Source: Methylomonas sp. EFPC3
GTDB lineage: Bacteria; Pseudomonadota; Gammaproteobacteria; Methylococcales; Methylomonadaceae
NCBI RefSeq assembly: GCF_029643245.1
Contig: NZ_CP116398.1
Location: forward strand, 930,001 to 994,000
Length of the DNA: 64,000 nucleotides
Direction of reading: 5' to 3'
The notes under the pieces are model-generated. The model saw only the letters and a program-made list of their open reading frames with translations, was not told the DNA's origin and did no database searches. This document shows, piece by piece, positions 1,475-15,325 of this stretch. The first letter of the stretch is position 1, and every line of letters begins with the position of its first letter. The translations under genes were made by a program, and so were the position numbers.

Positions 1475-1559
1475 GCCGGGGTGGTGAAACTGGTAGACGC
1501 GCCGGATTCAAAATCCGGTTCCTTCGGGAGTGTCGGTTCGATTCCGACCCTCGGTACCA
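1475..1559 (+). tRNA. tRNA-Leu (anticodon CAA), with encoded CCA
   Basis: An 85-nt class II tRNA. The acceptor strand GCCGGGG pairs with the 3' strand CCCTCGGT region, closing with a G-U pair. The anticodon stem CCGGA/TCCGG encloses loop TTCAAAA, giving anticodon CAA. A long variable arm (TTCCTTCGGGAG) and a T arm GGTTCGATTCC follow, and the CCA is encoded. The 3' end is the attachment site of the adjacent island and remains intact on this side. Confidence 0.96.
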
Positions 1560-1633
1560 CCTACCTATATAAGGTAGTCCAAAGAAATTTAAAAACCCGC
1601 GAGCCGCAAGGCTTAGCGGGTTTTTTATTGTCC
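1537..1633. repeat. attL: tRNA-Leu 3' end copy of the island attachment site
   Basis: The 3' part of tRNA-Leu plus downstream sequence is repeated in direct orientation at 15201-15294. The longest near-identical stretch runs from AGTCCAAAGAAATTTAAAAA through the GCGGGTTTTTTATTG terminator, with one difference (gccg/gcct). The tRNA-proximal part differs at a few bases, and a small hairpin between them has diverged (CTACCT..AGGTAG here, CTACT..AGTAG on the right). The pair bounds the integrated element. Confidence 0.85.
1594..1627 (+). terminator. Intrinsic terminator after tRNA-Leu
   Basis: The stem AACCCGC/GCGGGTT encloses a loop with a short internal GCC/GGC pair and is followed by six T. 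It lies 35 nt after the tRNA and is part of the duplicated attachment sequence, so the right junction carries a copy too. Confidence 0.85.
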
Positions 1634-1650
1634 ATATAAGACCAGTAAAA

Positions 1651-1743
1651 TGCAGTAACAACTTGCAAAAAATGCAGTAAGTTTTACAGTAACTCCAAAA
1701 ACAGTAGCTTTTTTCCGCTTATGGTTACTGCATAGTTACTGCA
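1651..1743. promoter_or_regulatory. Integrase arm-type binding sites (left)
   Basis: The motif TGCAGTAAC occurs at 1651-1659, TGCAGTAAG at 1673-1681 and a variant ACAGTAACT at 1686-1694. It occurs in the opposite orientation (GTTACTGCA) at 1724-1732 and 1735-1743. Two more direct copies sit just inside the right att at 15130-15138 and 15142-15150. Repeats at both inner ends of an element with a tyrosine integrase are the expected pattern for arm-type Int/Xis sites. The assignment is inferred from position and repetition. Confidence 0.7.
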
Positions 1744-1759
1744 GAAAGAGGTTTTTAGC

Positions 1760-3019
1760 ATGGCAAAACAACTGCTTAAAGATATTTCTGTTCGCAATGC
1801 CAAGCCAGCAGATAAAGACCTTCGTTTAAACGATGGGTCAGGGCTGTATTTGTTGGTTAAGACCAACGGCGCTAAATGGTGGCGATTCGATTATTCAATC
1901 GACGGCCGTCGAAAGACTATTTCTGTTGGCGTTTATCCTTCAATCAGCTTAGCCGATGCCAGGCGTAGAGCGGATGAAGCTCGATCGCTTGTAGCCAACG
2001 GCATCGACCCCAGCGAAACCAGAAAAGCTGACAAAGCAGCAAAGCAAGTGGCGGTCGAACAGGAAAAGCGCCTCGATGCCGGCCTGCCGCTGATCAACAG
2101 CTTCGAATATGTCACCCGAGAATGGCTGGCGTCAACCGCTCACACCGTCCGAGATATTACTCAGCAAAAGAAACAGCGCCGCTTTGAGTTATATGTCTTC
2201 CCGGCGATCGGGCAAATGCCGATCGGAGACGTGAAGTCGCCGGATGTTTTCGCCATCGTCCGGCCGCTGATCATCAAAAACCAACTGGAGACCGCGCACC
2301 GGGTGAGGTCGGACATTAGCGGTGCATTCGCTTATGCGATTGCCCACGGCTTCACCGATTACGATCCCGCGCAAGCGGTCGGCGCGCAGATCCCCGCTCA
2401 GAAAGTCACCCACAACGCCGCGATTACCGATCCCAAAGAAGTCGGCCGATTGCTGCGGGATATAGCCCATTATCAAGGTACCTTTGTTGTGCAAACCGCG
2501 TTGCGTCTGTCGCCTTATCTGTTTCAGCGGCCCGGGGAAATCCGGCAAATGGAATGGAAAGACGTCGATCTTGCCGCTAGAGAGTGGCGTTACTTCGTCA
2601 CCAAAACCGAAGTGCAACACATCGTGCCGCTGTCGCGCCAGGCGGTGGAGATATTGGAATCCATCAAACCTTTGACCGGGGTCGGTCAGTACGTTTTTCC
2701 ATCCAGTCGTGGCGACGGTCGGCCCATGTCGGACGGTACCGTTCGCACCGCGTTGAAGTCGCTAGGCTACGAAAAGGATGTGATGAGCGCCCACGGTTTC
2801 AGGACCACGGCGTCGACGTTGCTGAATGAGCAGGGCTGGACGCCTGACGCGATCGAGCGGCAACTGTGCCACATGCCCAAGGATCAAGTGAGGGCGGCCT
2901 ATAACCGAGCGCAATACCTGGAAGAGCGGCGGCGGATGATGCAAAGTTGGGCTGATTACTTGGATGGACTCAAGGCCGGAGCTGAGATTATTCCTTTTCG
3001 CCGAACAGCCGGAAGCTAA
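1760..3019 (+). CDS. int: P4-type tyrosine integrase of the tRNA-Leu island
   Basis: This 419-residue site-specific recombinase integrates and excises the island at tRNA-Leu. The N-terminal DUF4102-type domain (about 1-85) is followed by the arm-binding/core domain and the catalytic domain. Catalytic residues visible are Arg257 in FQRPGE, His345 and Arg348 in HGFRTT, His371 in LCHMPKD and nucleophile Tyr381 in RAAYNRAQY. The frame is intact. It starts 127 nt from attL, transcribed inward. Two decayed relatives occur at 15389-16625 and 16762-17395. It is most similar to the latter. Confidence 0.95.
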   Translation: MAKQLLKDISVRNAKPADKDLRLNDGSGLYLLVKTNGAKWWRFDYSIDGRRKTISVGVYPSISLADARRRADEARSLVANGIDPSETRKADKAAKQVAVEQEKRLDAGLPLINSFEYVTREWLASTAHTVRDITQQKKQRRFELYVFPAIGQMPIGDVKSPDVFAIVRPLIIKNQLETAHRVRSDISGAFAYAIAHGFTDYDPAQAVGAQIPAQKVTHNAAITDPKEVGRLLRDIAHYQGTFVVQTALRLSPYLFQRPGEIRQMEWKDVDLAAREWRYFVTKTEVQHIVPLSRQAVEILESIKPLTGVGQYVFPSSRGDGRPMSDGTVRTALKSLGYEKDVMSAHGFRTTASTLLNEQGWTPDAIERQLCHMPKDQVRAAYNRAQYLEERRRMMQSWADYLDGLKAGAEIIPFRRTAGS

Positions 3020-3101
3020 TTTATTGCCTAAACAGCCATCGCATACAATCATCGGCATACGGCCGAGGTAGATGGGTATAGATTTAGATCGTAGTTAGGC
3101 C

Positions 3102-3129
3102 TAAGATTTTGCGAACGCGAAAAATCTTA
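3102..3129. terminator. AT-rich hairpin after int (possible terminator)
   Basis: TAAGATTTTGCG and CGCGAAAAATCTTA form a near-perfect hairpin with a tiny loop between the ends of int and the convergent xis-like gene. It could terminate transcription from either side, since each arm ends in an A or T run. Function is inferred from position and symmetry only. Confidence 0.45.
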
Positions 3130-3177
3130 AGTTTTAACAGGGTATTTTCTTGCGGATATTGAAGGGTAGATGGCTGC

Positions 3178-3390
3178 TTAATGGCCATTATTGAGCCATT
3201 GCTTGGGCTTTCCGTCGCTGGCTTCGTATCGCAATACTTCAGTCATCCTGAATTTTACCCGGCCATTCACAGTTACAAAGGCGACCTTACCGGCGCTTCG
3301 GTATTTCCGTATAGTCGAAATCGATTTACCCCAGCGCTTGGCAAGCTGAGCCTCATCGATCATAGAATCAAAATCTGATTTTTCTGCCAT
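3178..3390 (-). CDS. Small helix-turn-helix protein, excisionase-like
   Basis: This is a 70-residue protein if started at the ATG at 3390. A TTG start at 3444 would add 18 residues but is less plausible. The central segment DEAQLAKRWGKSISTIRKY is a MerR/excisionase-type winged helix, followed by a basic strand (VNGRVKFRMTEVLRYE). This fits a recombination directionality factor or repressor. It converges on int and diverges from the AlpA-primase operon across the leader region, the usual place for a lysogeny or excision regulator. No clear ribosome-binding site is seen. Confidence 0.65.
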   Translation of the reverse strand: MAEKSDFDSMIDEAQLAKRWGKSISTIRKYRSAGKVAFVTVNGRVKFRMTEVLRYEASDGKPKQWLNNGH

Positions 3391-3462
3391 AGTTTGCTGG
3401 TGGTTTTCCAAATCTGCTGTTCTATATGTTACCGCACTGGACAATCTTGTACGTCGCTGGAA

Positions 3463-3541
3463 TTGACAATAGCATCAAAAATGCGGTTAAATTTCCCACA
3501 ATACAGAGTAACCCCGACCAGATATCTGGTCGGGGTTTTTT
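3463..3541 (+). ncRNA. Promoter-hairpin-terminator unit 1 (candidate short RNA)
   Basis: TTGACA at 3463-3468 is followed 18 nt later by TTAAAT at 3487-3492. About 20 nt further on is a perfect 26-bp palindrome (ACCCCGACCAGAT at 3511-3523 with its complement at 3524-3536) running into six T. A transcript would be only about 40 nt and mostly hairpin. The promoter half is homologous to unit 2 (shared aaaaatncggt and cccacaata/tccacaata). The palindrome could also be a protein operator. Expression is not shown. Confidence 0.45.
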
Positions 3542-3608
3542 ATGACTAAAATACAGTCGCTAGTTAGTGGTAAAGCTCTTTTTTGGACGTTGCTGCACTA
3601 ACTAGGAT

Positions 3609-3689
3609 TTGACAGCCGCCGCAAAAATACGGTGTAATTTTCCACAATAGCAACTAAGCCTGCCCAGGTAACTGAGCGGGCTTTTTTTA
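3609..3689 (+). ncRNA. Promoter-hairpin-terminator unit 2 (candidate short RNA)
   Basis: TTGACA at 3609-3614 is followed after 18 nt by TGTAAT at 3633-3638 (five of six matches to the -10 consensus). Then comes a hairpin AGCCTGC/GCGGGCT at 3657-3682 and seven T. The tail continues ATGCCCAAAATTT, which recurs after units 3 and 4. The predicted RNA is about 40-45 nt. Architecture and promoter sequence match unit 1 closely, but the hairpin sequence is unrelated. Confidence 0.45.
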
Positions 3690-3699
3690 TGCCCAAAAT

Positions 3700-3778
3700 T
3701 TAATCGAATCCCACCCTTAAAAATCTAATTCCACCAGGCCCGGAGCCGCTTTGAAAAGCGACCGGGCCTTTTTTTTGC
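3700..3778 (+). ncRNA. Promoter-hairpin-terminator unit 3 (degenerate promoter)
   Basis: A weak TTAATC/TCTAAT pair with the same 18-nt spacing (3700-3705, 3724-3729) precedes the strong hairpin AGGCCCGG/CCGGGCCT (3736-3743, 3762-3769). Nested inside is CGCTT..AAGCG, and eight T and GCCCAAAATTT follow. The terminator ends about 25 nt before the AlpA-like start codon. The downstream operon must therefore be reached by read-through, or by a promoter overlapping this element. Confidence 0.45.
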
Positions 3779-3802
3779 CCAAAATTTGAAGGAGAAACTT
3801 CA

Positions 3803-4030
3803 ATGATAAAAATCCCTGAAACGGGTTACCTACGTTTGCCGCAAATCGTCGGCAATCCAAAAACGGAACCACCAACACCTGGGCTTATCCCCATTAGCAA
3901 ATCAGCGTGGTGGGCTGGTGTTAAGGAAGGCCGCTATCCAAAAGCCATTAAATTGGGCCCGCGCACGACTGTTTGGCGAGTTGAGGACATACGCGCCCTG
4001 ATCGAAAAAACCGGAGGCGAAAATGGCTAA
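3803..4030 (+). CDS. AlpA-family transcriptional regulator
   Basis: This 75-residue protein is of the AlpA/phage_AlpA family, small MerR-like DNA-binding regulators of integrases and P4-type operons. Recognisable segments are GYLRLPQIVG, PISKSAWWAGVKEGRYP (the HTH region) and KLGPRTTVWRVEDIRALI, together nearly the full family length. GAAGGAG precedes the start. It heads an operon overlapping the zinc-ribbon gene by 8 nt and then the primase and helicase genes. Transcription must pass the stacked terminators just upstream. Confidence 0.88.
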   Translation: MIKIPETGYLRLPQIVGNPKTEPPTPGLIPISKSAWWAGVKEGRYPKAIKLGPRTTVWRVEDIRALIEKTGGENG

Positions 4031-4214
4031 CTCACCCCGCACCAAGCCGCGCCTTATCGGCGCAACTGTCCAAATTCTCAATTGTTCCGCTTGCGGTGGC
4101 CATACCAGAGCCAACCGGCTCGATCAGTTCGGCCGCTGCCCGTCTTGCAGGGGATTGCTTTTGTTAGCCACTACCCTGGATGCCGTGCGCCGGGTTCGAA
4201 TTGGGGGGCGTTGA
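4023..4214 (+). CDS. Small zinc-ribbon protein, function unknown
   Basis: A 63-residue basic protein with two Cys pairs, CSACGGH and CPSCRG, about 20 residues apart, consistent with a zinc ribbon. A C-terminal Arg-rich stretch ends in RRVRIGGR. It overlaps the AlpA-like gene by 8 nt and is followed after 2 nt by the next start, so it belongs to the replication operon. Small zinc proteins at this position in islands are common, but I do not recognise a named family. Confidence 0.7.
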   Translation: MANSPRTKPRLIGATVQILNCSACGGHTRANRLDQFGRCPSCRGLLLLATTLDAVRRVRIGGR

Positions 4215-4216
4215 TA

Positions 4217-4507
4217 ATGGCTACTCAATCGATATTCCCAAAAGCAGCTGATGAGTATAAATCGCGAGCGACTATCCACGCGGCCAACCTTGGGCTGGCG
4301 TTGGCGGTGGTTGATGCGTTTGCCGCTGAAAACATCGATCTATCGGCGTTCGGCTTGCAGCGCATATTGCTCGAACCTTCAATCCCGACAAACCGGGATG
4401 CGGTTCGGCTGGCTCGCCCGATCGGCCAAGCGCTTACTTTGCAACAGATCGATGCTTTGGTTGCGCGTCTCGATTCCATTCCCTTTCATTTCGGGGGTGA
4501 GTTATGA
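4217..4507 (+). CDS. Hypothetical 96-residue protein of the replication operon
   Basis: The start is the ATG two bases after the zinc-ribbon stop. The predicted protein is largely helical and Ala/Leu-rich (HAANLGLALAVVDAFAAENI), without cysteines, membrane segments or a recognisable motif. It overlaps the primase start by 4 nt (ATGA), implying translational coupling. I do not recognise it. An accessory role in replication or regulation is a guess from context. Confidence 0.7.
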   Translation: MATQSIFPKAADEYKSRATIHAANLGLALAVVDAFAAENIDLSAFGLQRILLEPSIPTNRDAVRLARPIGQALTLQQIDALVARLDSIPFHFGGEL

Positions 4508-5448
4508 GGCGGGCTGAGCGTTATTCGTCGATAGAGGAGGCGTCTGCCGAGGCCTGTAGCGAGGTCGGTATTACCTGGAAGCGGGTCGCGCATGACGACC
4601 GGTTTCACCGGGTGCCTGTTGTCGACGCGCGGTCATCCGGCAACCGAGACGGCGCGATTCAGATCACCGCAGACGGCCAGCGTGTCCAGGCGTTCAATTT
4701 CAAAACCGGCGCCAAGGCAATGCGGTTTTTGAACGGCAAGGGGCTGGATACGGTTTCCTCGGAAGAACTGGCCAGGATCGAGGCAGATCGCCGGCAGCGG
4801 GCCGAAGAGCTGGCCGCGCAGCATGACCAGAAGGCCAAGGTCGCCGAGCGCCAATTTTGGGCTGCCAAACCCTGGCCGTTCGAGCCGACCGGCTACCTGA
4901 AGCGCAAACAATTGCCTTCCGCCTACTGTGCCAGGCTGGCCCGCTTTGACCGGCGCGTTAAATGTGTCGATGGCGAAATCCGGCGCCTGACGGTGGCCAA
5001 AACCTTGCTGGTCCCGGTCTGGAATCGGGCCGGCCAGTTGCGCAACGTCCAAACCATTTTCGACGAAGCGCCGGCGCAATTGGGCAGGAATAAAACCTTT
5101 CTGTTCGGTGCCGAGATATCCGGCTGTTTTTGCCGGATCGGCTTCGAAAGCCAGACCGTATTCCTGACCGAAGGCTTTGCCGATGCGGCGGCGGTGCATA
5201 CCGACACACAGCGCCGCGTGTACTGCGCATTCTCGGCCGGCAACGTGCCGGCGGTCGCGCAAGTGATGCGGGGGTTACATCCGAAAGCTGAAATCATTGT
5301 CGTTGGCGATAACGATGCAATCGGGATCGCCAAAGCCAACGAAGCGGCGGCGCTGGTCGACGGCTCGGTGTGGTTTCCGCCCGAACCGCATAAGGATTAC
5401 GCCGACTATTACCTGGCACAAAGGACGGTGATCGATGAGCGGGGATAG
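4504..5448 (+). CDS. Toprim-domain primase-like protein of the island
   Basis: A 314-residue protein. After an N-terminal region and a charged coil (about 85-118), a Toprim domain carries the acidic motif LTEGFADAAA (about 221-230) and VVGDNDA (about 266-272), then KDYADYY. These are the metal-binding glutamate and aspartates of DnaG/P4-type primases. It probably makes RNA primers for island replication. It overlaps the helicase gene by 14 nt. In phage P4, primase and helicase are fused in the alpha protein. Here they are separate. Confidence 0.88.
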   Translation: MRRAERYSSIEEASAEACSEVGITWKRVAHDDRFHRVPVVDARSSGNRDGAIQITADGQRVQAFNFKTGAKAMRFLNGKGLDTVSSEELARIEADRRQRAEELAAQHDQKAKVAERQFWAAKPWPFEPTGYLKRKQLPSAYCARLARFDRRVKCVDGEIRRLTVAKTLLVPVWNRAGQLRNVQTIFDEAPAQLGRNKTFLFGAEISGCFCRIGFESQTVFLTEGFADAAAVHTDTQRRVYCAFSAGNVPAVAQVMRGLHPKAEIIVVGDNDAIGIAKANEAAALVDGSVWFPPEPHKDYADYYLAQRTVIDERG

Positions 5449-7420
5449 CAAGGTTGTAGAGATCCAGAAAGCCGCGAAAAAACCGCGGCCAACGGCCAAG
5501 AAGACCGGCGGCGGTGGCGGTGGCGGTGGCGGCAAGTCGTCCGGCAATCCCAATAAGTTCGGAAAGTACTGCATCAAGAACGGTTGCCTGTACTTGGTTA
5601 AGCTTGATCGGGACGGTAACGAAATCGAAGTGTTGTTGACCAACATCACCGCGAAAATCGTCGAATACGTCGCGCTCAAGAACGGCCTGGAAGAGTCCAC
5701 CGAATGGCATATTCAAGGCTGGCGCTCCAACGGTAGCGAACTGCCGTTAGCCAAGGTTGCCGATGCGGTGTTCTCCGGCGGCAATGCCAACTGGTTAAAC
5801 CCAAAATGGGGGCCGAATGTCATTGTCGAGCCGGGCGCTACAACCATCCGCCACGTGCGGGCGGCGATTCAGTATTACAGCGCGCTCGATGGCGATGTGC
5901 CGGTGCGAACCGTGTACCAGTGTTCGGGCTGGGAGAAGATTGACCGCGGCGAATGGGCGTTTTTGCATACCGGCGGCGCCATTACCGCGCAAGGTTTGGT
6001 CGAAACGGTCGAGGTTGAGTTACCCGGAAACCTGGCCAAGTACCAGCTTCCGGCACCGCTGGCCGGTGATGAGCTGAAAGCTGCTTTGGCCAGTGCCTTG
6101 CAATTGCCTGGCGTGTGTCCGAGCAAGCCGCAAGTCGGCGCCGCGTTGTTGTGTATGGCATTGCGCTCGCCGCTGAATGAATGTCTCGATACCGACTTCG
6201 TGTTGTTTCTGCATGGTTTGACCGGCAGCCGCAAAAGTTCGGTGGCCAAGTTGGCGCTGGGTTTTCACGGTCTGGGCTTTACGTCGCGCGGCGAGCGCAA
6301 CCGTGGCTTTCCGGGTAACTGGTTGAGTTCGCCGAAGGCGGTGCCGATGCAGTGCTTTCTGGCGAAAGATACCGTCTTTATCGCCGACGATCTGAAGTAC
6401 ACCGGCGGCCGGTCTGATGATGATCTGGTTAAAACCGCTAACGATCTGATCATGGCCATCGGTAACGGCAGCGGCCGCGATACTCTGACTGCCGACCGCC
6501 GCTTGCGAAATGGCCAACGTAGTCGCTGCTCGCTGATTTGTACCGGCGAGGATACGCCGAAATCCCAATCGACCTTTGCCCGCATGCTGACGATGGAAAT
6601 CACACGCCAGGATGTCGACGAGCAAGCACTCACGGCGCTGCAGATTGCCTCGGAATCCGGTCAGTTTGCCGGGCTAATGTCGGCTTATCTGCAATGGATG
6701 GCGAGTAATCTGGACCGCCTGAAAAGCGAATTTCCCGCCTTGGTCGTTCAACTGGCCGATTCCGGTACCGCAAGACAATTAGCCTCATCCCATCCCCGCG
6801 CCCCAGGCATCTACGCCAATATGGTGGCGGCCGTGGAAATCTTTGCCGAGTTTTTGCAGGACACCGGCTTGATGGGGTTGGTCGAGATCAACGCCATGCA
6901 GGGCGGGATCGAGCAAGCCTTACAGTCGGCGTTCGAGGGCCAACGCAATTACCAAGACGATCAAGATCCCTGCTTGCGGTTTATCGAGCTGATTCAATCG
7001 GCGCTGGCAGCGGGCGACGCGCACCTGCCGGACAAGAACACCCAGGAGGCGCCGAAGGTTCGGCCGCATGCCTGCGGCTGGGGGCGTTCCGGACCGGGAA
7101 GCGAAGACTACACGCCGAACGGCAAGCGGATCGGTTGGTTCGATCCACCGAAGGCGCCGCACAGCGCCAAGGTGTATTTGCTGCCCGATGCCGCTTTCGA
7201 GGTTGCGCAAGGCATCGCCGGCCGGCAGCGGCAACCGTTCTTCGGCGGCAACGCCAAGAGTTTATGGCGGCTGATGATGCACCGCGGTTTGATCGTCGCC
7301 AGTGGAGACAAGAAAAGCCCCCGCGCAACCTGGCGCAAACAGATTGGCGGGATTGAGCACACAGTCTTGGTGATAGAAGCCGGCTTGTTATTGCCGGCCG
7401 GTCATGACTCCGAAATATAG
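5435..7420 (+). CDS. DUF927-type replicative helicase/ATPase
   Basis: This 661-residue protein is probably the helicase that works with the preceding Toprim primase. The N-terminus is basic with a run of nine glycines (25-33). A DUF927-like region follows, then a P-loop FLHGLTGSRKSS (Walker A near 261-269) and a Walker B-like VFIADDL (about 314-320). The C-terminal 150 residues could be the DNA-binding part (lysine/arginine-rich, ending in a winged-helix-like segment). It is followed directly by a 945-nt non-coding region rich in GTGC repeats, a likely origin. Confidence 0.88.
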   Translation: MSGDSKVVEIQKAAKKPRPTAKKTGGGGGGGGGKSSGNPNKFGKYCIKNGCLYLVKLDRDGNEIEVLLTNITAKIVEYVALKNGLEESTEWHIQGWRSNGSELPLAKVADAVFSGGNANWLNPKWGPNVIVEPGATTIRHVRAAIQYYSALDGDVPVRTVYQCSGWEKIDRGEWAFLHTGGAITAQGLVETVEVELPGNLAKYQLPAPLAGDELKAALASALQLPGVCPSKPQVGAALLCMALRSPLNECLDTDFVLFLHGLTGSRKSSVAKLALGFHGLGFTSRGERNRGFPGNWLSSPKAVPMQCFLAKDTVFIADDLKYTGGRSDDDLVKTANDLIMAIGNGSGRDTLTADRRLRNGQRSRCSLICTGEDTPKSQSTFARMLTMEITRQDVDEQALTALQIASESGQFAGLMSAYLQWMASNLDRLKSEFPALVVQLADSGTARQLASSHPRAPGIYANMVAAVEIFAEFLQDTGLMGLVEINAMQGGIEQALQSAFEGQRNYQDDQDPCLRFIELIQSALAAGDAHLPDKNTQEAPKVRPHACGWGRSGPGSEDYTPNGKRIGWFDPPKAPHSAKVYLLPDAAFEVAQGIAGRQRQPFFGGNAKSLWRLMMHRGLIVASGDKKSPRATWRKQIGGIEHTVLVIEAGLLLPAGHDSEI

Positions 7421-7446
7421 AAGATGTCTTGTTATGGCGTGTAACA

Positions 7447-7774
7447 GTGCAACTCTAACAAATATCAAGGAATATTCAAATAATTTCATATGGTTAGAGT
7501 TGCACGTTTTATTGCACGCCGGGATTTTTAACTGTGCGGATTGCCTGCAAATTGTGCGGTTCTTTAGTCGTTGGCTTCGCCTTCACAAAATGGTGCAACG
7601 ACATCGCCGCACGAAATTTAACGTGCGACTGCACGCTAACTTACATGCCTCGTGCAACCGCAAACCCGCGTCGCAACTGGGCTGCAGAGATTCTTGCACG
7701 GTCGCACGCTTTTTCCGGGGGGGTATACATAGAAATATTTTTTATCACCGGATGATTGGATTGGTGGCGTGCAA
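7447..7774. repeat. Cluster of thirteen GTGCRR motifs with a 13-bp inverted repeat
   Basis: Sites start at 7447, 7534, 7554, 7593, 7623, 7652 and 7769 on the plus strand. Complements lie at 7500-7505, 7512-7517, 7607-7612, 7630-7634, 7694-7699 and 7702-7707. A random 330-nt stretch would hold about two or three GTGC on both strands. The first two sites are the ends of the perfect inverted repeat GTGCAACTCTAAC/GTTAGAGTTGCAC, around a 33-nt AT-rich loop. Likely iterons for the adjacent helicase or primase. Confidence 0.6.
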
Positions 7775-7800
7775 TGTTGGTTAGCGAGTGACCATAACCG

Positions 7801-7850
7801 GGTGGGGCGGGTCAAAACTCATGGGGTTGCCACGCCCTTTGCGTCGCCCC
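7801..7850 (+). repeat. 50-bp direct repeat, copy 1
   Basis: Matches 7989-8038 at 45 of 50 positions and has the same length. Both begin GGTGGGGCGGGTCAAAACTC and end CTTTGCGTCGCCCC. The ends GGGGCG/CGCCCC are complementary, so each copy can fold as a hairpin. This copy runs into five T and could terminate transcription. Role unknown. Confidence 0.75.
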
Positions 7851-7960
7851 TTTTTCGTTCATGCGGATGCAGAATTAAATTGAAAAAGCCCATGGGTCCT
7901 GACCGGCTGCGTTCAGTCAGATGCAATCAACCTGCAATGACCGACCAAGAGGCATTGAAA

Positions 7961-8132
7961 TTATCCACAGGAAAAAGGCTAGGCCAGGGGTGGGGCGGGT
8001 CAAAACTCAGGGGCTTGCCCTGGCCTTTGCGTCGCCCCAGGTAGATTTTTGCTGAAGTATTTTTTGGAAATCCAAAAAGCCACCGCTTGTCCTGTGGATA
8101 ACTGCTTATTTGTTTTGTTCTTCTGTGCATAA
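7961..8132. promoter_or_regulatory. Three DnaA-box matches around repeat copy 2
   Basis: TTATCCACA at 7961-7969, its complement TGTGGATAA at 8093-8101 and TGTGCATAA (TTATGCACA) at 8124-8132 all fit the strict DnaA consensus TTWTNCACA. Three within 172 nt is well above chance. They flank the second 50-bp repeat and suggest host DnaA takes part in island replication, unlike classical P4. Confidence 0.55.
7989..8038 (+). repeat. 50-bp direct repeat, copy 2
   Basis: Second copy of the 7801-7850 repeat, 188 nt downstream in the same orientation. Three of its five differences fall in the inner half, where an AGGGG..CCCT hairpin replaces the pairing of copy 1. It is bracketed by DnaA-box matches. 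Confidence 0.75.
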
Positions 8133-8539: not shown

Positions 8540-8738
8540 CGGAATTTTTTCAACCTGTGGTATAAATCGAGACAGTGGTTTCCGGCGTGATGCTGGTGGC
8601 CATAGCGAACCGGTGTGATGCCGGCCGCGTTAGACAAGTCCCACCTGCGGCGCGATGCTGCACTCAAGTCTGTCACTCGTACATATCACGGATTTTTTAA
8701 CCGGCGACTTCCCGTCGTCACTTTCGTGCGAGACCGAC

Positions 8739-9539
8739 ATGAAAAACTGGTATCAAATTAAAAACTTAACGGCCGCGAGCGCCAGTATCTCGATTCATGA
8801 CGAGATTGGTGGCTTGGGTATTTCTGCCTCACAGTTCATCAACGAACTACAGGCGCTTAACAATGTGGCAACAATCGAGCTGCATATTCATTCACCTGGC
8901 GGCAGTCTGCTGGATGGATTGGCGATTTACAACGCGCTGAAAAACCACCCGGCGCGAGTCCTTGGTCATGTTGATGGTCTGGCGGCGTCTGCTGCGAGCG
9001 TTATCCTGATGGCTGGCGATGTAATCACCATGCCGGAAGATGCTTTTCTGATGATCCACAACGCGCAGGGCGGAGCCTATGGCGATGCTGCAGAGCTACG
9101 CGATATGGCCGACCTGATGGAAAAGCTGCAATCCAGTGCGATCGATATCTATCAGCAACGCACCGGACAAGACCGCCAAACCATCATCGACATGATGGCG
9201 AAAGAAACCTGGATGAACGCGACGGAAGCCAAGGCCTTGGGTTTCTGCGACCAGGTCTTGGGCCGGGTCGGCTTGGCGGCGAAAGCACGGTCGTTTGACA
9301 ATCACTTCCAATTGTCGCCGCTGGCCGGCACTGCGGATTTTTCCGAATTGAACTCGATGCGCGACTTCGAGCGGTTCTTCCGCGATTGCCATTTAAGCAA
9401 ATCAGAGGCATCGGCCTTGTGCGCCAAAATGAAAGCCATATTCGCGCGACCGGCCGAACAGGTCGGCGAAGAAGACCAGGCCTTTATTGCGCGCCTGGAA
9501 GCGTTCAGCGCCAAGCTGCCGAAGTCCATTCTTAACTAA
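8739..9539 (+). CDS. ClpP-family prohead protease
   Basis: A 266-residue serine protease of the phage ClpP-like head-maturation type. It probably cleaves the scaffold/delta region of the capsid protein encoded next. The catalytic triad fits Ser84 in GLAASAAS, His107 in MIHNAQG and Asp145 in RTGQD. The substrate-binding motif HSPGGSLLDG precedes it. The family-like start is ATG 8739. An upstream in-frame ATG at 8655 would add 28 residues without family support. It sits 19 nt before the capsid gene. Confidence 0.9.
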   Translation: MKNWYQIKNLTAASASISIHDEIGGLGISASQFINELQALNNVATIELHIHSPGGSLLDGLAIYNALKNHPARVLGHVDGLAASAASVILMAGDVITMPEDAFLMIHNAQGGAYGDAAELRDMADLMEKLQSSAIDIYQQRTGQDRQTIIDMMAKETWMNATEAKALGFCDQVLGRVGLAAKARSFDNHFQLSPLAGTADFSELNSMRDFERFFRDCHLSKSEASALCAKMKAIFARPAEQVGEEDQAFIARLEAFSAKLPKSILN

Positions 9540-9558
9540 TTTCAAAGGATATTCATTT

Positions 9559-10893
9559 ATGAAAATTACTCATTTCATCGCCCTGAGCTTGGGCATCATC
9601 ACCCTTATGGTTTTGGGTTTCGACGCCAGCGCCGCGTCTCACGACATGGCCGCTACATTGGGCGGTTTGCCGGCGCTTGATCCAAGCGGAGCATGGTCGG
9701 CCTTGGGATTTGCCGGTATTGTGGGCAACCAAGAGACTGTCATGAAACTGTTGGACGGCGTGGAAAAATCGTTAGCCGATTTTCAAGCCCAAGCCAAACG
9801 GGAACTGCAGGAAGCCGGCCGGGTTTCCGTCGACGTGAAAAACGCTTTGGAAGCCATTGGAGACAAACAGCGCGAATTGGCTGACGAAATCCTGCAACTC
9901 AAGCAAAAAGGCGTGGCCGATAATGTCGGTAACGGTTCTTCGCATGCTGTGGGCTGGGGCGCGCAAGTGATCAAAAACGCCGCCTTTGCGGACTTCGCTC
10001 GCGGTGATCGGCAAAAAGCCAAGTTCAACATCCAGAACAACACGGTAACCGGTTCCAGCACAACCGTAGCGCCGGATCGTCGCCCTGGTGCGGTGCCGGG
10101 GGCTTCCTCGCCATTAAATCTTGAAGCGCTGTTCAAGCATTTTCCAACCGGTTCGGACATGGTCGAGTACACCCGTGAGAGCGTGTTTACCAACAGTGCG
10201 GCCGAAACTGCCGAGGGTAGCGACGCTCCGGAGTCGAGCGTTACCTTTACGCTGGTGCAACAACCGGTGTCTACGGTCACGCACTGGGTGAAAATCTCCA
10301 AGCAATTGATGGCGGACCATCTCGCGCTGGCCGAGTACATCAATACCCGGCTGATGTGGGGTGTCCAACGTCGCGTTGATAATCAAATCGCATCGGGAAA
10401 CGGCGTGGCGCCGAACATGTCCGGTCTGTTTGCATCTGGCAACTACGTTGCGCACGGATACGCCGCCGCCTTAGTCGGTACGCCTTTACCCAAGCATCGC
10501 CTGATTCGGAAAGTAATTGCCGATATGAAAGCATCCGGATATGTACCGAATGCGGTATTGCTGAACCCTGCGGATTGGCTGGCGTTCGACCTGGATTTGC
10601 TGGCATCAACTCCGGCGGCCTTGTCGGCTGCGGACATTGCCAACGGCTTCGCACCGATGTTGTTCGGGGTGCCGGTGGTCGAGTCCAACAGCATCACGGC
10701 CGACACCTTCCTGGTGATCGATAGCTTGGCGGCGGGGAGTGTTTACGATCGCCAAGAAGTTGCCGTGGAGTTTTCGGACAGCGACGACGATAACTTCACC
10801 AAGGGCTTGGTCACCGTCCGCGCGGTCCGCCGCTTGGCCATGGCGGTCGAGCAAACCGCGGCCATCCGTGGCGGCGACTTGACGCCGGCCTAA
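9559..10893 (+). CDS. HK97-fold phage major capsid protein with N-terminal signal-like segment
   Basis: A 444-residue major capsid protein. Residues about 60-125 form the coiled-coil delta/scaffold region. The shell domain follows, with typical segments such as PVSTVTHWVKISKQLMAD, RVDNQIASGNG, VLLNPADWLAFD and MLFGVPVVESNSI. AAAGGA precedes the ATG. Unusually, residues 1-26 (MKITHF, a hydrophobic stretch, then DASAASHD) look like a cleavable signal peptide. No portal, terminase or connector gene is adjacent, so these would have to come from a helper phage. Confidence 0.9.
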   Translation: MKITHFIALSLGIITLMVLGFDASAASHDMAATLGGLPALDPSGAWSALGFAGIVGNQETVMKLLDGVEKSLADFQAQAKRELQEAGRVSVDVKNALEAIGDKQRELADEILQLKQKGVADNVGNGSSHAVGWGAQVIKNAAFADFARGDRQKAKFNIQNNTVTGSSTTVAPDRRPGAVPGASSPLNLEALFKHFPTGSDMVEYTRESVFTNSAAETAEGSDAPESSVTFTLVQQPVSTVTHWVKISKQLMADHLALAEYINTRLMWGVQRRVDNQIASGNGVAPNMSGLFASGNYVAHGYAAALVGTPLPKHRLIRKVIADMKASGYVPNAVLLNPADWLAFDLDLLASTPAALSAADIANGFAPMLFGVPVVESNSITADTFLVIDSLAAGSVYDRQEVAVEFSDSDDDNFTKGLVTVRAVRRLAMAVEQTAAIRGGDLTPA

Positions 10894-10953
10894 CCGGTAA
10901 TTCACCGGGCCATGGTTTCGGTCGTGGTCCGGTCATTTCTTGAGGGAAAGACC

Positions 10954-11457
10954 ATGAAACTACTTGAAAAATTATTCAGCCAATCGCGGCTTGTCGACGA
11001 TCTGTTGCGCAGCGATTTAACCGAACGATCTACCGAGCGTAAAGCCTGCGCCCAACAAATCGAACGCCTGACCAACGAACTGGGCGCCCTGCAAACCGAT
11101 CAACTGGCCAAAGCTGAAAAGGCCGTGGCGGATGCCGCGCTAAAACTGGAAAACGCCCGTCGCGAATATGCCGACCTTACCGCCAAGCTTGAACAGCGCC
11201 GGCGGGAACTGAGTCGCCAACTTCAAACGGAAGAGCAAAAACTACAAGCCTTGAAACCCCTCATCATTCAGCAGCTTGTCGATAAACTGGACGAAAAGCG
11301 GCAAGCTGTTGCGGTTTTGACTCCGGCGAAATTCAGACTATGTAACGAAATCGTTACCGAACTTGGGGAGTTGGTACGCGTGGTCGACGATGACCTGTTG
11401 TTGAAGCGGATCGAGGAAACCGACCGCAAAATTGATAACGCCTTGAGTGCGGCCTAA
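10954..11457 (+). CDS. Coiled-coil protein after the capsid gene
   Basis: 167 residues, started at the ATG at 10954 (GAGGGAAAG before it). A longer in-frame start at 10912 lacks such a site. Residues about 25-110 are an uninterrupted Glu/Lys/Ala/Leu heptad pattern predicted as coiled coil, followed by a shorter helical domain. Position and composition would suit a scaffold, a decoration protein or a host-takeover factor that reshapes capsid assembly. No family is recognised and there is no membrane segment. Confidence 0.75.
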   Translation: MKLLEKLFSQSRLVDDLLRSDLTERSTERKACAQQIERLTNELGALQTDQLAKAEKAVADAALKLENARREYADLTAKLEQRRRELSRQLQTEEQKLQALKPLIIQQLVDKLDEKRQAVAVLTPAKFRLCNEIVTELGELVRVVDDDLLLKRIEETDRKIDNALSAA

Positions 11458-11836
11458 ATGTTGTCGATGCCGCCCTGGCGCCGAGCCGGCTTTTTGAGTT
11501 ACGCGGATTATTGGGCCTCGCGACAAGCAAAAAGCCGGCGCTCAAAAAATAATTGACATTTCCTCCCGCTGGCGCGCAGAATGATTCCGCCAGTCATTAC
11601 ACTGGCACCGGGCGTCGAAACTCGGTCTAGCAATGGCGAAAATTCGCCGCATTTATCGCGGTTTTTTTACGCCCAAAATTTGCGCGGCCTAGCTGCGTTT
11701 ACATTATGGCGGACTGTCTGGGCAGCGTTCGGCGCTGGCCGGCTCCATTGCCCGGTTTTCGACCCCATTCAGTCCGTCGCCCAATAGCGTCGAAACTATC
11801 GGCGGCGGTTCATCTATTTGCAATGGAGTAACCGCT
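11458..11836. other. 379-nt intergenic region holding RNA unit 4
   Basis: Between the coiled-coil gene and the small-gene operon. It holds a candidate promoter-RNA-terminator unit (11553-11671). After that, about 165 nt include a second copy of GCGTCGAAACT (at about 11613 and 11788). A 68-codon open frame at 11581-11787 has no family resemblance and overlaps the RNA unit, so it is not called. Confidence 0.5.
11553..11671 (+). ncRNA. Promoter-RNA-terminator unit 4 (candidate ~80-nt RNA)
   Basis: TTGACA at 11553-11558 and CAGAAT at 11577-11582 have the same 18-nt spacing as the units at 3463-3778. The expected transcript folds a GCCAGT/ACTGGC hairpin near its 5' end and ends in CCGC/GCGG plus seven T. 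It is followed by ACGCCCAAAATTTG, the tail shared with units 2 and 3. Longer than the other units. It lies just before the small-gene operon, as units 1-3 lie before the replication operon. Confidence 0.4.
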
Positions 11837-12451
11837 ATGAATACTCATGCCTTGGGCAAAGTCCGCCCAATCACCACTTATACCGATACGCTAAAAACGC
11901 TCGGCCAGCGCTTCGAGCTGTTAAGCAATGGCTACGCCGCGTTTTCCGCTTACCTTGGCACACCGATCCAAAGTGACGGGGAAGAGCTTTTTTCCAGCAT
12001 CGTCGACGAGGTCGCCAAACTGCAATGGCTATCCTTTGGCGTCTGCGAAAGTATTAGCGACCTGTCATTGGCGTTAAGCCCAAAAACCGGCGCGACCGTT
12101 GAAGCGCCGGACGCCGAGGTTATGGAGCGATTTTTTCGGCAAGTAGCCGAACTGGATGCGGAGCGCGAAACCGTGACAGCGGCCGGGCTGCCGGCGCTGA
12201 CCCGACTGGTGGCCATCGCCGACCGCGACACCGGCCAAGCCGGCACCGTCCGAGCTTTTCTCCTGGGCCTGTATAACGGCTATCGCTTCCCCTTCAATCT
12301 GACCAAGCTGAGAGGCTTGGACAAAGACTTGTTCGACGATTGCCAGGCTGTGCTGGCGCTGGATGCCAGAGCCACCGCCCAGGAGATCCACTGCTACCTG
12401 GACAACGGCGACGCCATTTTTCAGCGCTGGGCGCAAGGCGGTGCCGAATGA
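11837..12451 (+). CDS. Unknown island protein with conserved TGQ core (204 aa)
   Basis: 204 residues, start preceded by GGAG. The central segment LTRLVAIADRDTGQAG then VRAFLLGLYNG resembles a domain found in many plasmid and island proteins. From memory it is catalogued as DUF7673, but I could not check this. The N-terminal 110 residues are helical and unrecognised. No catalytic motif is seen. It heads an operon of seven genes in which each start overlaps the previous stop, running to 14479. Confidence 0.7.
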   Translation: MNTHALGKVRPITTYTDTLKTLGQRFELLSNGYAAFSAYLGTPIQSDGEELFSSIVDEVAKLQWLSFGVCESISDLSLALSPKTGATVEAPDAEVMERFFRQVAELDAERETVTAAGLPALTRLVAIADRDTGQAGTVRAFLLGLYNGYRFPFNLTKLRGLDKDLFDDCQAVLALDARATAQEIHCYLDNGDAIFQRWAQGGAE

Positions 12452-12672
12452 GTGTGAAAGCCAGTCCGACGATCATCGAACAACAGCACACCTTAACCAA
12501 TCCCCTACACCCGATATTTTCCGCCCTGGCTCTAAGCTATGGCATGGTTATGCAAGATGCCAAGTATGGCGAATTGAGCCTTAACGTGTTGGATAGCTTC
12601 GTTTCCGATTGCGAAGAAATTCTGGCGATGGCGTATCAATTACGCCAACAATTCTTGGGGGTGCAAGCATGA
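12448..12672 (+). CDS. Small helical protein, operon gene 2 (74 aa)
   Basis: The start overlaps the previous stop as ATGA, indicating translational coupling. The protein is predicted almost entirely helical, with a C-terminal segment VLDSFVSDCEEILAMAYQL typical of small helical bundles. No motif is recognised. It resembles its operon neighbours in size, acidity and helix pattern. Whether they are true paralogues cannot be settled by eye. Confidence 0.65.
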   Translation: MSVKASPTIIEQQHTLTNPLHPIFSALALSYGMVMQDAKYGELSLNVLDSFVSDCEEILAMAYQLRQQFLGVQA

Positions 12673-12965
12673 GCGCGCAACCCCTTATCGAACTAAAGCA
12701 TCGTATTCCCTACACGCTCCAAAACGGCGAGCCGACATCTAACCTGATCGATACGGTTATGCCCTCGCTAAAACGGGCGCGTGCCATTGCGGAATTGTTG
12801 GAAATTGCCGGAGCTAATGATTTTGGCACGGTATGCAACGAAGTTCTGGTCTGTGTTGGCCAGGCGATCCAATTAGAATTGGACGATACGGCGGTATTTG
12901 TTGAGTTCTACCGTAACCATTTTGACCAAAAACAGGGTGGTAATGGCCAGGGGGAAAGGGTATGA
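12669..12965 (+). CDS. Small helical protein, operon gene 3 (98 aa)
   Basis: Coupled to the previous gene by an ATGA overlap. The N-terminus (IELKHRIPYTLQNGEP) looks extended, followed by two long helices around SLKRARAIAELLEIAG and GQAIQLELDDTAVFVEFY. Net acidic, no membrane segment, no cysteine motif. Unrecognised. Part of the same tightly packed operon and probably made in stoichiometric coupling with its neighbours. Confidence 0.65.
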   Translation: MSAQPLIELKHRIPYTLQNGEPTSNLIDTVMPSLKRARAIAELLEIAGANDFGTVCNEVLVCVGQAIQLELDDTAVFVEFYRNHFDQKQGGNGQGERV

Positions 12966-13228
12966 GTGATCAAGCAAACATCCGCCCGCAATTCACCCAC
13001 CGCCTTGGTGAAGACTGGGCCAATCCGCTTATGCTCGCTGATGCCATCGGTTTGATGACTTTCCGTGCCAAAGGCGTTCTGGAACTGATATCGATCAACT
13101 TGGAGGCCGACGTTCAGGCCAGCGATCAGATCGTTAAGGCTGCGCTGTCTGCGACCATTGCCGAGATAGAAGATATCGACATTACCATTCAGTGTTATCA
13201 CGATGCAGTGAGCGGGGGCGCACGATGA
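12962..13228 (+). CDS. Small helical protein, operon gene 4 (88 aa)
   Basis: Starts within the stop of the previous gene (ATGA). The N-terminus contains FTHRLGEDWANPLMLADAIG, followed by a long acidic helical region (LELISINLEADVQASDQIVK, IAEIEDIDITIQCYHDAV). Unrecognised. The acidic character and lack of any catalytic signature argue for a binding or inhibitor protein rather than an enzyme, but that is inference. Confidence 0.65.
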   Translation: MSDQANIRPQFTHRLGEDWANPLMLADAIGLMTFRAKGVLELISINLEADVQASDQIVKAALSATIAEIEDIDITIQCYHDAVSGGAR

Positions 13229-13491
13229 ATATTGAAAATGCCCTATGTCCAACTCAGCAGGCGAAGGCGGTCATTGATTTGATTATGGCCGCGCCTGACG
13301 AATACCTGAAAGACGAAACGGCGGTTTACGCGCTTTATTCGGTGATGGACAACCTAAATCGCGCGCTCAGCGCCATTCACGAGTTGTTTGACGATGCGAG
13401 CGCTATTTATCAAGCGCTGAGCAAAAGAGGCTTGTTTGAAGAGGTGATGGCCGAACTCAACGGGAAAGACGGAGAGGAGGGGAAATCATGA
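13225..13491 (+). CDS. Small helical protein, operon gene 5 (88 aa)
   Basis: ATGA overlap with gene 4. The sequence has a central helix YSVMDNLNRALSAIHELFDD and ends in a charged tail (LNGKDGEEGKS). The pattern of a DNLNRAL helix followed by a second acidic helix is like its operon neighbours. Unrecognised, no nucleic-acid-binding or metal motif. The stop overlaps the HTH gene start by 4 nt. Confidence 0.65.
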   Translation: MNIENALCPTQQAKAVIDLIMAAPDEYLKDETAVYALYSVMDNLNRALSAIHELFDDASAIYQALSKRGLFEEVMAELNGKDGEEGKS

Positions 13492-14135
13492 GTATCGAGT
13501 ATTTGAACGCCGCCTTCCAGGTGCGTCTGATGGGCACCACCAAAGCGGTGCTGATCGCTCTGGCGGATCGGGCCAACCGGGCCGGTTACTGCGTTGCTTC
13601 GCTGGACGATATCGCGCTGCGGGCCGGGTGTTCGCCGCGTAGTGCGATGCGTGCCGTCGGCGAACTGGAAGCGCTAGGCCTGGTGGTCGTGGTGCGCGAT
13701 CCTGGCCGGGCGAATCGTTACCTGTTGATGGTCGAAAAGTTCTCAACAACCAGTGACACCACGTCGCCGGATTTTCCCGAGATATCAACATCCAGTGACA
13801 CGGCGTCACAGCAAGAAGTTATCCACACCGGCGACAATTCTGCAAAAACCCGTGACATTTCAGCAAAAACCCATGACACCATGTCATACAAACCATATAA
13901 CCAAAATAACCATAACGCGCGTGCGCGCGAGGGTGGTGATGTCCACAAGCCGCCCGTTTCGCCTTTGTCCGGACAACCGCCCGACCGGTGCCGGCCGGTG
14001 GTGTTATCCGCGGCCGGCGGTGAGCCGCCGCCGGCTTCCAGTCGGCGCCCGCCTGGCCAGGCTGTCACCCGAGAACTAACCCACATCCGAGCGTTGTTGC
14101 TCAATGCCCAACTGCCTGTCGGAGGTAAGCCATGA
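13488..14135 (+). CDS. Helix-turn-helix replication-type protein with intragenic repeats
   Basis: 215 residues. Residues about 15-80 form a winged HTH of the HTH_36 type (TKAVLIALADRANRAG, DIALRAGCSPRSAMRAVGEL, LVVVVRDPGRANRYLL) seen in phage replisome organisers and Rep proteins. The middle is low-complexity and Ser/Thr/Asp-rich, coded by iteron-like palindromes and a DnaA box (see 13754-13887), as in lambda O-type genes where the origin lies inside the initiator gene. The Pro/Arg-rich C-terminus is unrecognised. It could equally be a transcription regulator. Confidence 0.75.
   Translation: MSIEYLNAAFQVRLMGTTKAVLIALADRANRAGYCVASLDDIALRAGCSPRSAMRAVGELEALGLVVVVRDPGRANRYLLMVEKFSTTSDTTSPDFPEISTSSDTASQQEVIHTGDNSAKTRDISAKTHDTMSYKPYNQNNHNARAREGGDVHKPPVSPLSGQPPDRCRPVVLSAAGGEPPPASSRRPPGQAVTRELTHIRALLLNAQLPVGGKP
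13754..13887. repeat. Intragenic iteron-like palindromes with a DnaA box
   Basis: GTGACACGGCGTCAC (13795-13809) and ATGACACCATGTCAT (13873-13887) are palindromes of the form TGACA-N3-TGTCA. An imperfect copy lies at 13754-13766. GCAAAAACCCRTGACA occurs twice at 13842-13857 and 13863-13878, exactly 21 bp apart (two helical turns). TTATCCACA, a perfect DnaA box, lies at 13819-13827. All fall in the linker-coding part of the HTH gene, the typical place of a lambdoid-type origin. Confidence 0.6.
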
Positions 14136-14479
14136 GCTGCGCAAAAAATCAGCAAGGACTTGGGGCGTTTAGGGTCGGTAAAGCCTTGGGCTGTCTTTAC
14201 GAGGTCGCGGCCAATCATCTTTCCGTGGAAGAATTGGAACTGTTGGAACAAGCCACCGCGTCGGCACAATATCAAGCGGAAAACCTATCGGCCGTGCTGC
14301 AGTCGTTGGGATCGGTTGCGGCATTCGATAAAGGTAAGCATTGGGACCACGGAAACGCGACGCCAAGTCTGCTTTGGATGCTATCCAACCAACTCGATAT
14401 GATCGCCGGGTTGATCGAGATCGGCGAAAACGCCGAATATCGACTGCGAACCAGGGTGCAGCAAAACAGAGAGGGATAA
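14132..14479 (+). CDS. Unknown helical protein, last gene of the small-gene operon (115 aa)
   Basis: ATGA overlap with the HTH gene. Predicted mainly helical, with VEELELLEQATASAQYQ and SNQLDMIAGLIEIGENAEYR. No recognised domain. The C-terminal helix resembles the helices of operon genes 4 and 5 in pattern. It ends the run of seven coupled genes. 171 nt of non-coding sequence separate it from the membrane-protein gene. Confidence 0.65.
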   Translation: MSCAKNQQGLGAFRVGKALGCLYEVAANHLSVEELELLEQATASAQYQAENLSAVLQSLGSVAAFDKGKHWDHGNATPSLLWMLSNQLDMIAGLIEIGENAEYRLRTRVQQNREG

Positions 14480-14650
14480 ACGGCTTGGTCGTCCGGGGCA
14501 TGAAGCTCTCGCCATTAATTGTTGGTGTGAATGTGGCGGCTCTGATACGCGATAGAATTTGAGTTTGCGGGCATCTGCATAAGTGTAAAAATGCGCGCTG
14601 TCCCAAGGCGGATTGAAGGTATATCCGCCAAAATTGTTTTAGGAGGTTAA

Positions 14651-15112
14651 GTGGCTGAAAATAAAACAGACGGTTCCAATCAAGATGGCGAATTGGAATG
14701 GTGGAAAATGTTTAACGAACACCAAAAAGATGGGCGCCAAAGAGCTGATTTTCTTGCAAAATCAATATTCTTACTAAGTGGCGGTACTTTGGCGCTGTCA
14801 ATCCAGCATTTCACTGATAAAACAAAAGGTTTACGACTTACACCTGATTTAGTGTGCATGGTGAGGGTCTCGTGGGTGGCGTTAGTTCTATCGATCGTCC
14901 TGGCGTTGATTGTTCTAGTTTTGATTCTTAGGCGGGATTACAGCCTAGGTGAGCGATGGCGTCGGAAATTGCAAGGTGAGCAGGTTGATGCGAGTGGTAG
15001 CCCCACGTATTTGGAAAATTTGATTTGGGGCTTAGGAATCACAAGTCTGATTTCTTTTATTCTGGGGCTGGTAATTCAGGCATTCATCGCGTGTCATTTG
15101 GTAGCGGCATGA
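14651..15112 (+). CDS. Small membrane protein next to attR (153 aa), possible cargo
   Basis: GTG start after an excellent ribosome-binding site (AGGAGGT, 14641-14647). After a charged N-terminus (EWWKMFNEHQKDGRQRADFL), three hydrophobic stretches are seen at about 38-52, 72-95 and 127-150, with a basic loop RRDYSLGERWRRK between the last two. It is more AT-rich than the operon before it and sits beside the attachment site, where satellites often keep superinfection-exclusion or defence cargo. Function unknown. The layout is loosely like SLATT-type effectors. Confidence 0.7.
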   Translation: MAENKTDGSNQDGELEWWKMFNEHQKDGRQRADFLAKSIFLLSGGTLALSIQHFTDKTKGLRLTPDLVCMVRVSWVALVLSIVLALIVLVLILRRDYSLGERWRRKLQGEQVDASGSPTYLENLIWGLGITSLISFILGLVIQAFIACHLVAA

Positions 15113-15129
15113 TGGATAAAATTACAAAA

Positions 15130-15150
15130 TGCAGTAACTATTGCAGTAAC
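15130..15150 (+). promoter_or_regulatory. Integrase arm-type sites (right)
   Basis: Two copies of TGCAGTAAC, 12 bp apart (15130-15138, 15142-15150), matching the left-end copies at 1651-1743. They lie 51 nt inside the right attachment copy. Presence at both inner ends supports that 1537-15294 is one element served by the intact integrase at 1760-3019. Confidence 0.7.
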
Positions 15151-15200
15151 TTTTAAGGGTAAAATTATTTTATATTGATAAATAAGGGGTTTTAATATTA

Positions 15201-15294
15201 TTCGGTTCCGACCCTCGTACCATCTACTCTTCCAGAGTAGTCCAAAGAAATTTAAAAACCCGCGAGCCTCAAGGCTTAGCGGGTTTTTTATTGT
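15201..15294. repeat. attR: right copy of the tRNA-Leu attachment site
   Basis: TTCGGTTCCGACCCTCGTACCA resembles the tRNA-Leu T arm and 3' end but has lost one G of CTCGGTACCA and has one substitution. A diverged small hairpin follows, then a near-identical 55-bp stretch with the terminator GCGGGTTTTTTATTG. It marks the right end of the island and the left end of the older remnant that follows. Confidence 0.85.
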
Positions 15295-15325
15295 TCAACG
15301 AAATGTAGGGGCATACACCCAAAAG

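Follow-up and report, generated by a model that had tools for sequence, protein, structure and literature searches.

How can a small mobile element that carries genes for a capsid shell and for its maturation protease be packaged and spread without a terminase, portal or tail gene of its own? This question is raised by an island in Methylomonas sp. EFPC3, which lies in the 64,000-nucleotide stretch of DNA analyzed here (referred to as the window; positions 930001–994000 of contig NZ_CP116398.1, a 4.44-Mb single-contig genome; coordinates without a locus name are window positions, and features lie on the forward strand unless stated otherwise). An initial annotation of this DNA had described a phage satellite which replaces the shell and the protease of a helper phage and borrows the helper's portal, terminase and tail. 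The analysis reported here points in a similar direction: the island is probably a phage satellite of the cos type that brings part of a head kit, and its own small shell would be filled by the helper terminase through the helper portal. It is a discrete mobile element of 13.66 kb with an intact and conserved major capsid protein (MCP), protease and companion protein, and it holds cos-like sites of the HK97 type.

The island spans approximately 1632–15296 and is inserted at a tRNA-Leu gene (caa; 1475–1559), the integration target, where it is bracketed by direct att copies at 1554–1634 and 15217–15297 that are 88% identical and spaced by 13,663 nucleotides. In a genome of the same species (G109), window segments 492–1631 and 15201–16589 abut with an overlap of 95 nucleotides, i.e., this genome contains the empty site, in which the flanks are joined with a single att copy and in which the left-hand match stops at 1631. 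As the flanks lie side by side in G109, the island is a clean insertion; it is real, discrete and mobile, and the tRNA-Leu island with direct att copies of the initial annotation is thereby confirmed. Beyond the right att copy (15327–17110), a decayed second integrase sequence is present as repeats D1–D5 with 73–84% identity to the first integrase, and this decayed copy is found in G109 as well.

The capsid module is composed of a ClpP-type head maturation protease (8739–9539; PF00574, 4e-34; phrog_133, 1.5e-77), an HK97-type MCP (9559–10893; PF05065, 9e-31; phrog_10, 5e-39) and a coiled-coil companion protein of 167 amino acids (10954–11457); the former two had been assigned correctly before. 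The MCP shares 30.7% identity with HK97 gp5 and contains the full delta domain, its profile (60–440) aligning with a capsid protein of solved structure that possesses this domain. Ahead of this domain, the MCPs of the window (9559–9640), L014, L015, L016 and the related phage L017 carry a hydrophobic, signal-peptide-like N-terminal stretch (mean hydropathy of 2.05–2.34 over 19 residues), which is lacking in the MCP of L011; such an N-terminus might possibly indicate a membrane step in shell assembly. The companion is predicted to fold into a long helical hairpin (mean predicted local distance difference test score, pLDDT, of 81; predicted template modeling score, pTM, of 0.47), for which a structural search returned no match at E ≤ 0.001. 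A protein of 57 amino acids precedes the protease (8366–8539) and is 60% identical to a homologue at the same place in L018. It perhaps resembles the tail at the C-terminus of head proteases and may act as a free docking peptide: the family phrog_22327 matches it at 0.015 (in a longer open reading frame, ORF), the tail of the ClpP protease at 0.18 and the L017 protease at 5e-5.

Genes for the remaining virion parts were searched with PHROGs in 20 stretches, namely the ORFs taken as genes with the exception of the AlpA-like regulator, and in Pfam and NCBIfam. Among the scanned ORFs, none matched a family of terminases, portals, connectors or tail proteins credibly, which agrees with the initial annotation, in which no such gene had been seen and a profile search for them had been proposed. 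The side matches are weak: an excisionase-like helix-turn-helix (HTH) protein (3178–3444, reverse strand) matches the small terminase subunit (TerS) family phrog_57 at 0.0012 compared with 6e-8 for the excisionase family phrog_66 and 1.6e-7 for phrog_7735, and the companion matches tape measure proteins at 0.0089 and scaffolding proteins at 0.013, values that any coiled coil may yield. A terminase hidden in the large ATPase of 661 amino acids (5435–7420) was rejected as the profile comparison, made with small alignments, gave 0.4%; the comparison of this ATPase with other primase-helicases failed as well (1.1%), which limits the force of this negative. Likewise rejected was a portal hidden in the companion (0.1%, again with small alignments; helical hairpin without fold match).

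How the island DNA could nevertheless be loaded into a head is suggested by the non-coding DNA past the ATPase gene, where we read two stretches, 7802–7896 and 7988–8038 (the latter 90% identical to the former), as putative cos sites of HK97-type phages. The first matches phage L017 at about 12084–12174 (75% over 91 nucleotides, E 1e-10), at the end of the HNH gene and ahead of TerS. A 22-letter consensus derived from both island sites and L017, which copy 1 matches at 21/21, was found in 11 viral contigs; a match to the large terminase subunit (TerL) follows 0.57–2.0 kb downstream in ten of them, while the sequence of the eleventh ends 0.75 kb later, and an HNH match lies near the motif in eight (upstream in six, overlapping in L097, downstream in L089). 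Of the 27 other satellite-type loci, 15 contain the motif at 17/21 or better and 13 at 18 or better. Random order-1 sequences (three of 538 kb, one strand each) yielded none at 18 or better and one at 17; since random sequences reach 17, matches at this level (L014, L075) are weak when taken alone. The site is located 0.3–1.2 kb behind the ATPase/primase gene and on the same strand in 14 of the 15 loci, and a named Mesorhizobium phage record contains a 17/21 match between HNH and TerS. A helper-type cos in the satellite is suggested by matching sequence and position, with HK97's own cos scoring at chance level. A further stretch (3609–3697), 91% identical to L017 11376–11463 ahead of the late genes of this phage (E 1.3e-28) and with four weaker matches in G109, G122, G127, and G115, hints at a control region shared by island and phage.

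The capsid set is not confined to the window. An MCP match was obtained in nine of 237 genomes of the family, which include seven satellite-like islands in six genomes (G000, G115, G121 with two, G122, G127, and G020), a phage with TerS, TerL, portal, protease and MCP (G133), and weak partial, unclassified matches in G093 and G124; in the class, three of 274 genomes matched including the own genome, the matches in G395 and G580 being unclassified. All seven islands encode MCP and companion and six of them also the ClpP protease, so that the genome-wide search for this protease–capsid pair proposed earlier proved positive. Their backbones are of three kinds. One is that of the window, a second, of the tRNA-Met type, has a different integrase and primase (L012–L015, L018), and the third is a tRNA-Ser type (L016). 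Among 311 genomes of the order, the companion profile recovered these six and one further match that looks like chance, and it gave no other convincing match among 369 genomes drawn from the class. Matches in G018, G442, and G537 were discarded as chance, G442 encoding a coiled-coil membrane-type protein without a capsid gene within 3.3 kb, and G018 and G537 being judged from score and reading frame only. Because convincing matches are confined to the neighborhood of satellite MCPs, the companion may be considered a candidate setter of shell size. Scans of viral contigs yielded one contig with the MCP and none with the companion or the ATPase, a scan of genome contigs with the companion yielded one locus, and a plasmid search with the MCP yielded 32 records, all below 60% identity. 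Some islands show additional features: L012 is truncated by the contig start, L015 carries a large transposase gene (phrog_7951) beside the capsid set, and L012, L014, and L018 also encode a tape measure protein of 549 amino acids (phrog_28, E 3e-54 for L014; by homology for L012 and L018), preceded by a small gene. In L016, a unit of about 135 bp occurs three times in tandem upstream of the MCP gene (13202–13615) inside an HTH-like ORF, which gives a side match to TerS phrog_57 at 2e-4.

In a tree of MCPs, six satellite proteins are separated from nine others by a branch with a support of 99/98 (L012, a near duplicate, was omitted, no MCP row was obtained from four contigs, L090 and L096 were not included, and the G580 row is labeled phage with its context unchecked). 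The ratio of non-synonymous to synonymous substitution rates (dN/dS) is 0.08–0.20 for the MCP, 0.13–0.31 for the protease and 0.04–0.29 for the companion in the ten pairs formed by the five tRNA-Met-type copies, to which the estimate is restricted because dS is saturated in pairs that include the window copy; judged from these ratios, the capsid-set genes are under purifying selection. Between G115 and three other genomes, dS amounts to 1.38–1.60 for the host gene thiL and to 0.84–0.98 for nusB but to only 0.09–0.20 for the MCP gene, showing that the islands moved between species; between G115 and G122, flanking DNA is 79.5% and island DNA 92–96% identical. The five islands that can be measured are of similar length (13,663; 13,097; 13,273; 13,414; and ~13,577 bp), corresponding to 0.33–0.34 of the HK97 genome (39,732 bp), which is about the ratio that T=4 compared with T=7 gives for P4 and P2.

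Relatives of the island backbone carry other virion genes. Of 20 ATPase neighborhoods examined, from which ten proteins were scanned against PHROGs, L086 contains behind the ATPase gene a protease–MCP fusion (phrog_4523, 7e-127), L083 a head protease which we take to be lambda-C-like (phrog_53, 5e-49; S49 in Pfam), and L074 a tape measure protein (phrog_28, 8e-53) with a small gene ahead of it. A tail assembly protein, presumably lambda-I-like, is encoded there in L076 and L077 (phrog_32, 5e-26 for L076; by homology for L077). In the other 15 neighborhoods, in which most ORFs were not scanned, no virion module was recognized. We tentatively consider a family of methanotroph satellites in which interchangeable virion modules, i.e., shell plus protease, protease–shell fusion, a head protease of another kind, tape measure with a small gene, or tail assembly protein, would sit behind one replication block, many of them with one helper-type cos; each might rebuild a single stage of the helper virion, be it the size of the head, the length of the tail or its tip, and rely on the helper for everything else, and the satellite-only coiled coil would set shell size. 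In two of these 15, L084 (10824–17538) and L088 (725–8000), large genes directly adjoin the backbone kin; the two that were scanned match the head/internal-virion families phrog_992 and phrog_418, and the genes may be either cargo or part of a neighboring prophage. Kin without the satellite MCP and with repeats near tRNA genes (L069, L071, L074, L082, and L086) measure 9,362–11,705 bp; four of these (L069, L071, L082, and L086) have 9.4–10.3 kb, close to a quarter of 39.7 kb, and packaging of four copies per helper head would be a guess.

Taken as a mechanism, an HK97-type helper phage would switch the island on, perhaps via the control region common to such a phage, and the primase and ATPase of the island would replicate its DNA. 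The island MCP, cut by its own protease, would form a small shell, the size of which the companion may fix and which would receive the helper portal; helper TerS and TerL would recognize the cos sites of the island and load one unit of about 13.5 kb, before helper tails are attached. This account of own shell and protease with borrowed portal, terminase and tail, as proposed in the initial annotation, fits the findings and is strengthened by the cos-like sites, which that annotation had not noticed, by the recurrence in seven islands and by the fact that no hidden terminase or portal came to light; it stays an inference. In the tests made, neither a hidden terminase or portal nor derivation from a full prophage nor uniqueness of the arrangement emerged, the outcomes which the initial annotation had named as refuting it.

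Several observations weigh against this account. The consensus was built from the window sites and L017, so these are not independent support, and L017, the sole related phage with the cos-like site, comes from a draft that is 78% complete. No motif at 17 or better is present in 12 of the 27 satellite-type loci, the ATPase gene and the site are separated by a tail-protein gene in L076 and L077, and the site is on the opposite strand in the remnant L100. HK97's own end, which is also located between HNH and TerS, reaches 13/21 where chance matches in the same record reach 12–13, so the likeness to the HK97 cos is one of position and judged by eye, and a BLAST search with the cos-like site as query found no counterpart among 50,697 records of named phages. 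L016 has MCP and companion without the protease and without the motif at 17 or better, and the agreement in size concerns five islands only, with L016 (13,414 bp) delimited by an 18-nucleotide repeat. Finally, the six satellite genomes contain no portal matching PF04860 and no phrog_9 terminase besides one weak match (4e-11) in a P2-type prophage of G000 itself, and therefore no matching helper is resident; the PF04860 search was imperfect in that it missed the portal of this G000 prophage (weak hmmscan match, 5e-7). This resident prophage (L025, G000:C1 ~2315001–2335000) encodes a P2-type MCP and scaffold, a terminase (PF03237) and a weakly matching portal and is possibly a helper, though one with a mismatched capsid.

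The strongest rival, a live one even if we consider it rather unlikely, is a chimeric shell in which the island MCP co-assembles with the helper MCP, e.g., as pentamers only, and thereby shrinks or reshapes the helper shell. Ccm of the Staphylococcus aureus pathogenicity island (SaPI) SaPIbov5 is described to act in this way and to form no capsids alone (PMC8569155); L016 retains the MCP without the protease, and the MCP of the related phage is close enough (48% identity to the window MCP) to make co-assembly plausible. Yet Ccm is just 24% identical to the capsid protein of its helper and no protease is identified in SaPIbov5, whereas six of seven islands carry a matching protease and the island MCP retains its full delta domain.

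It is improbable, in our view, that MCP, protease or companion serve as weapons which poison the assembly of an incoming phage while the island travels in ordinary helper heads. Satellites do carry defenses that block assembly, such as Tai (PMC11364771), Ccm is described to block its helper, and kin without the satellite MCP also have cos-like sites, so the MCP is not required for packaging as such; the full set of protease, MCP and companion, though, exceeds the needs of a blocker, and the MCP islands that can be measured, five in number and on three backbones, all have 13.1–13.7 kb, which is what a head of fixed size would impose. Least probable by far is descent from a complete prophage by loss of terminase, portal and tail. 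HK97-type phages have their protease and MCP genes in this order and the genus harbors a related complete phage (L017), but the same gene set recurs on unrelated backbones with the MCPs in a separate clade, the companion was not found in the related phage, and low dN/dS, recent transfer, precise att copies and the empty site all speak against decay. A lone prophage remnant was accordingly rejected on the empty site in G109, the MCP dN/dS of 0.08–0.20 and the 99/98 support of the MCP clade.

The remaining genes are those of a replicating and integrating element. The tyrosine integrase (1760–3019; PF13356, PF22022, and PF00589), which we take to be P4-type, the AlpA-like regulator (3803–4030; PF05930, 6.7e-5) and the Toprim primase (4504–5448; phrog_2249, 1.2e-35) were named as such in the initial annotation and are recovered in the profile libraries. 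Its DUF927 label for the helicase at 5435–7420 is not confirmed, with no match in Pfam or NCBIfam: this ATPase belongs to a family without a name, with chance-like PDB matches only (0.065 or worse) and one PHROGs primase match at 0.32, and it is presumed to be a replication helicase. The family is large, occurs in 38 of 237 genomes of the family Methylomonadaceae and shares an invariant G-x-x-G-S-x-K-S, which looks P-loop-like. Behind the capsid module lies a non-coding stretch (11514–11835), possibly a regulatory RNA or replication origin, of which 19 of the 20 backbone kin share conserved parts although they carry differing modules. It is followed by a DUF7673 protein (11837–12451; PF24720, 6e-29), a replication-initiation O-like protein with HTH_36 (13488–14135; profile matches) and a small protein (14651–15112; sub-threshold DUF4064, a membrane protein by eye), while several further small proteins belong to no recognized family.

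If the preferred reading is true, a satellite swaps one whole virion part, shell plus protease, and the packaging motor comes from another genome, so that the portal–shell joint tolerates exchange across genomes; the kin with other virion genes would allow one to ask, in methanotrophs, which parts can be swapped. This gene combination, or a paper on Methylomonas phage satellites, was not found in the open-licence literature, a weak absence as subscription papers and preprints are mostly outside of it. The island shares with P4-like satellites the P4-type integrase, AlpA, primase/ATPase, tRNA site and small size, which are traits of that family. Unlike P4, it has a cos-like site of HK97-type phages and its own shell gene, and no match to Sid, Psu or Delta, the hallmark proteins of P4 satellites, was found among the ORFs scanned, though not every ORF was compared with every library. 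To our knowledge, the phage-inducible chromosomal island-like element (PLE) of Vibrio cholerae has no MCP of its own. Like PLE, whose TMP, TAC, and BhuB make chimeric tails (PMC12987554), islands of this kind would place satellite structural proteins in helper virions, three tRNA-Met-type islands carrying a tape measure and small gene; unlike the island with its own shell gene, PLE is described to remodel the helper capsid (PMC10945586). Tail blockers of satellites (Tai; PMC11364771) and the HK97 motor (PMC10359639) offer further reference points, and Charybdis elements are unrelated. Capsid-forming phage-inducible chromosomal islands (cfPICIs) likewise have their own MCP and head maturation protease, both present here, and use helper tails, but are described to encode portal, connectors, TerS, TerL, and HNH in addition (PMC10690885, PMC11389934), which were not found in the island. 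Like SaPIbov5 and other cos SaPIs, which package their DNA at cos into small heads with the help of helper parts including the portal, it encodes an HK97-fold homologue of capsid proteins and neither portal nor terminase, and it would share their mode of packaging and small heads if it works as proposed; SaPIbov5 has no known protease (PMC8569155, PMC5052747). Unlike SaPIbov5, whose Ccm is incomplete alone, the island has an MCP of full length together with a protease and a companion coil, and its Gram-negative backbone is unrelated. Given Ccm, cfPICIs, and PLEs, calling the strategy new or little described, as in the initial annotation, was too strong. The kind is already known; what is new is the combination of shell and protease with a putative helper-type cos, in a group whose kin carry other virion genes, and this combination, if it works as proposed, bridges the capsid redirectors (Sid, CpmB, TcaP, and Ccm) and the cfPICIs that bring a full head.

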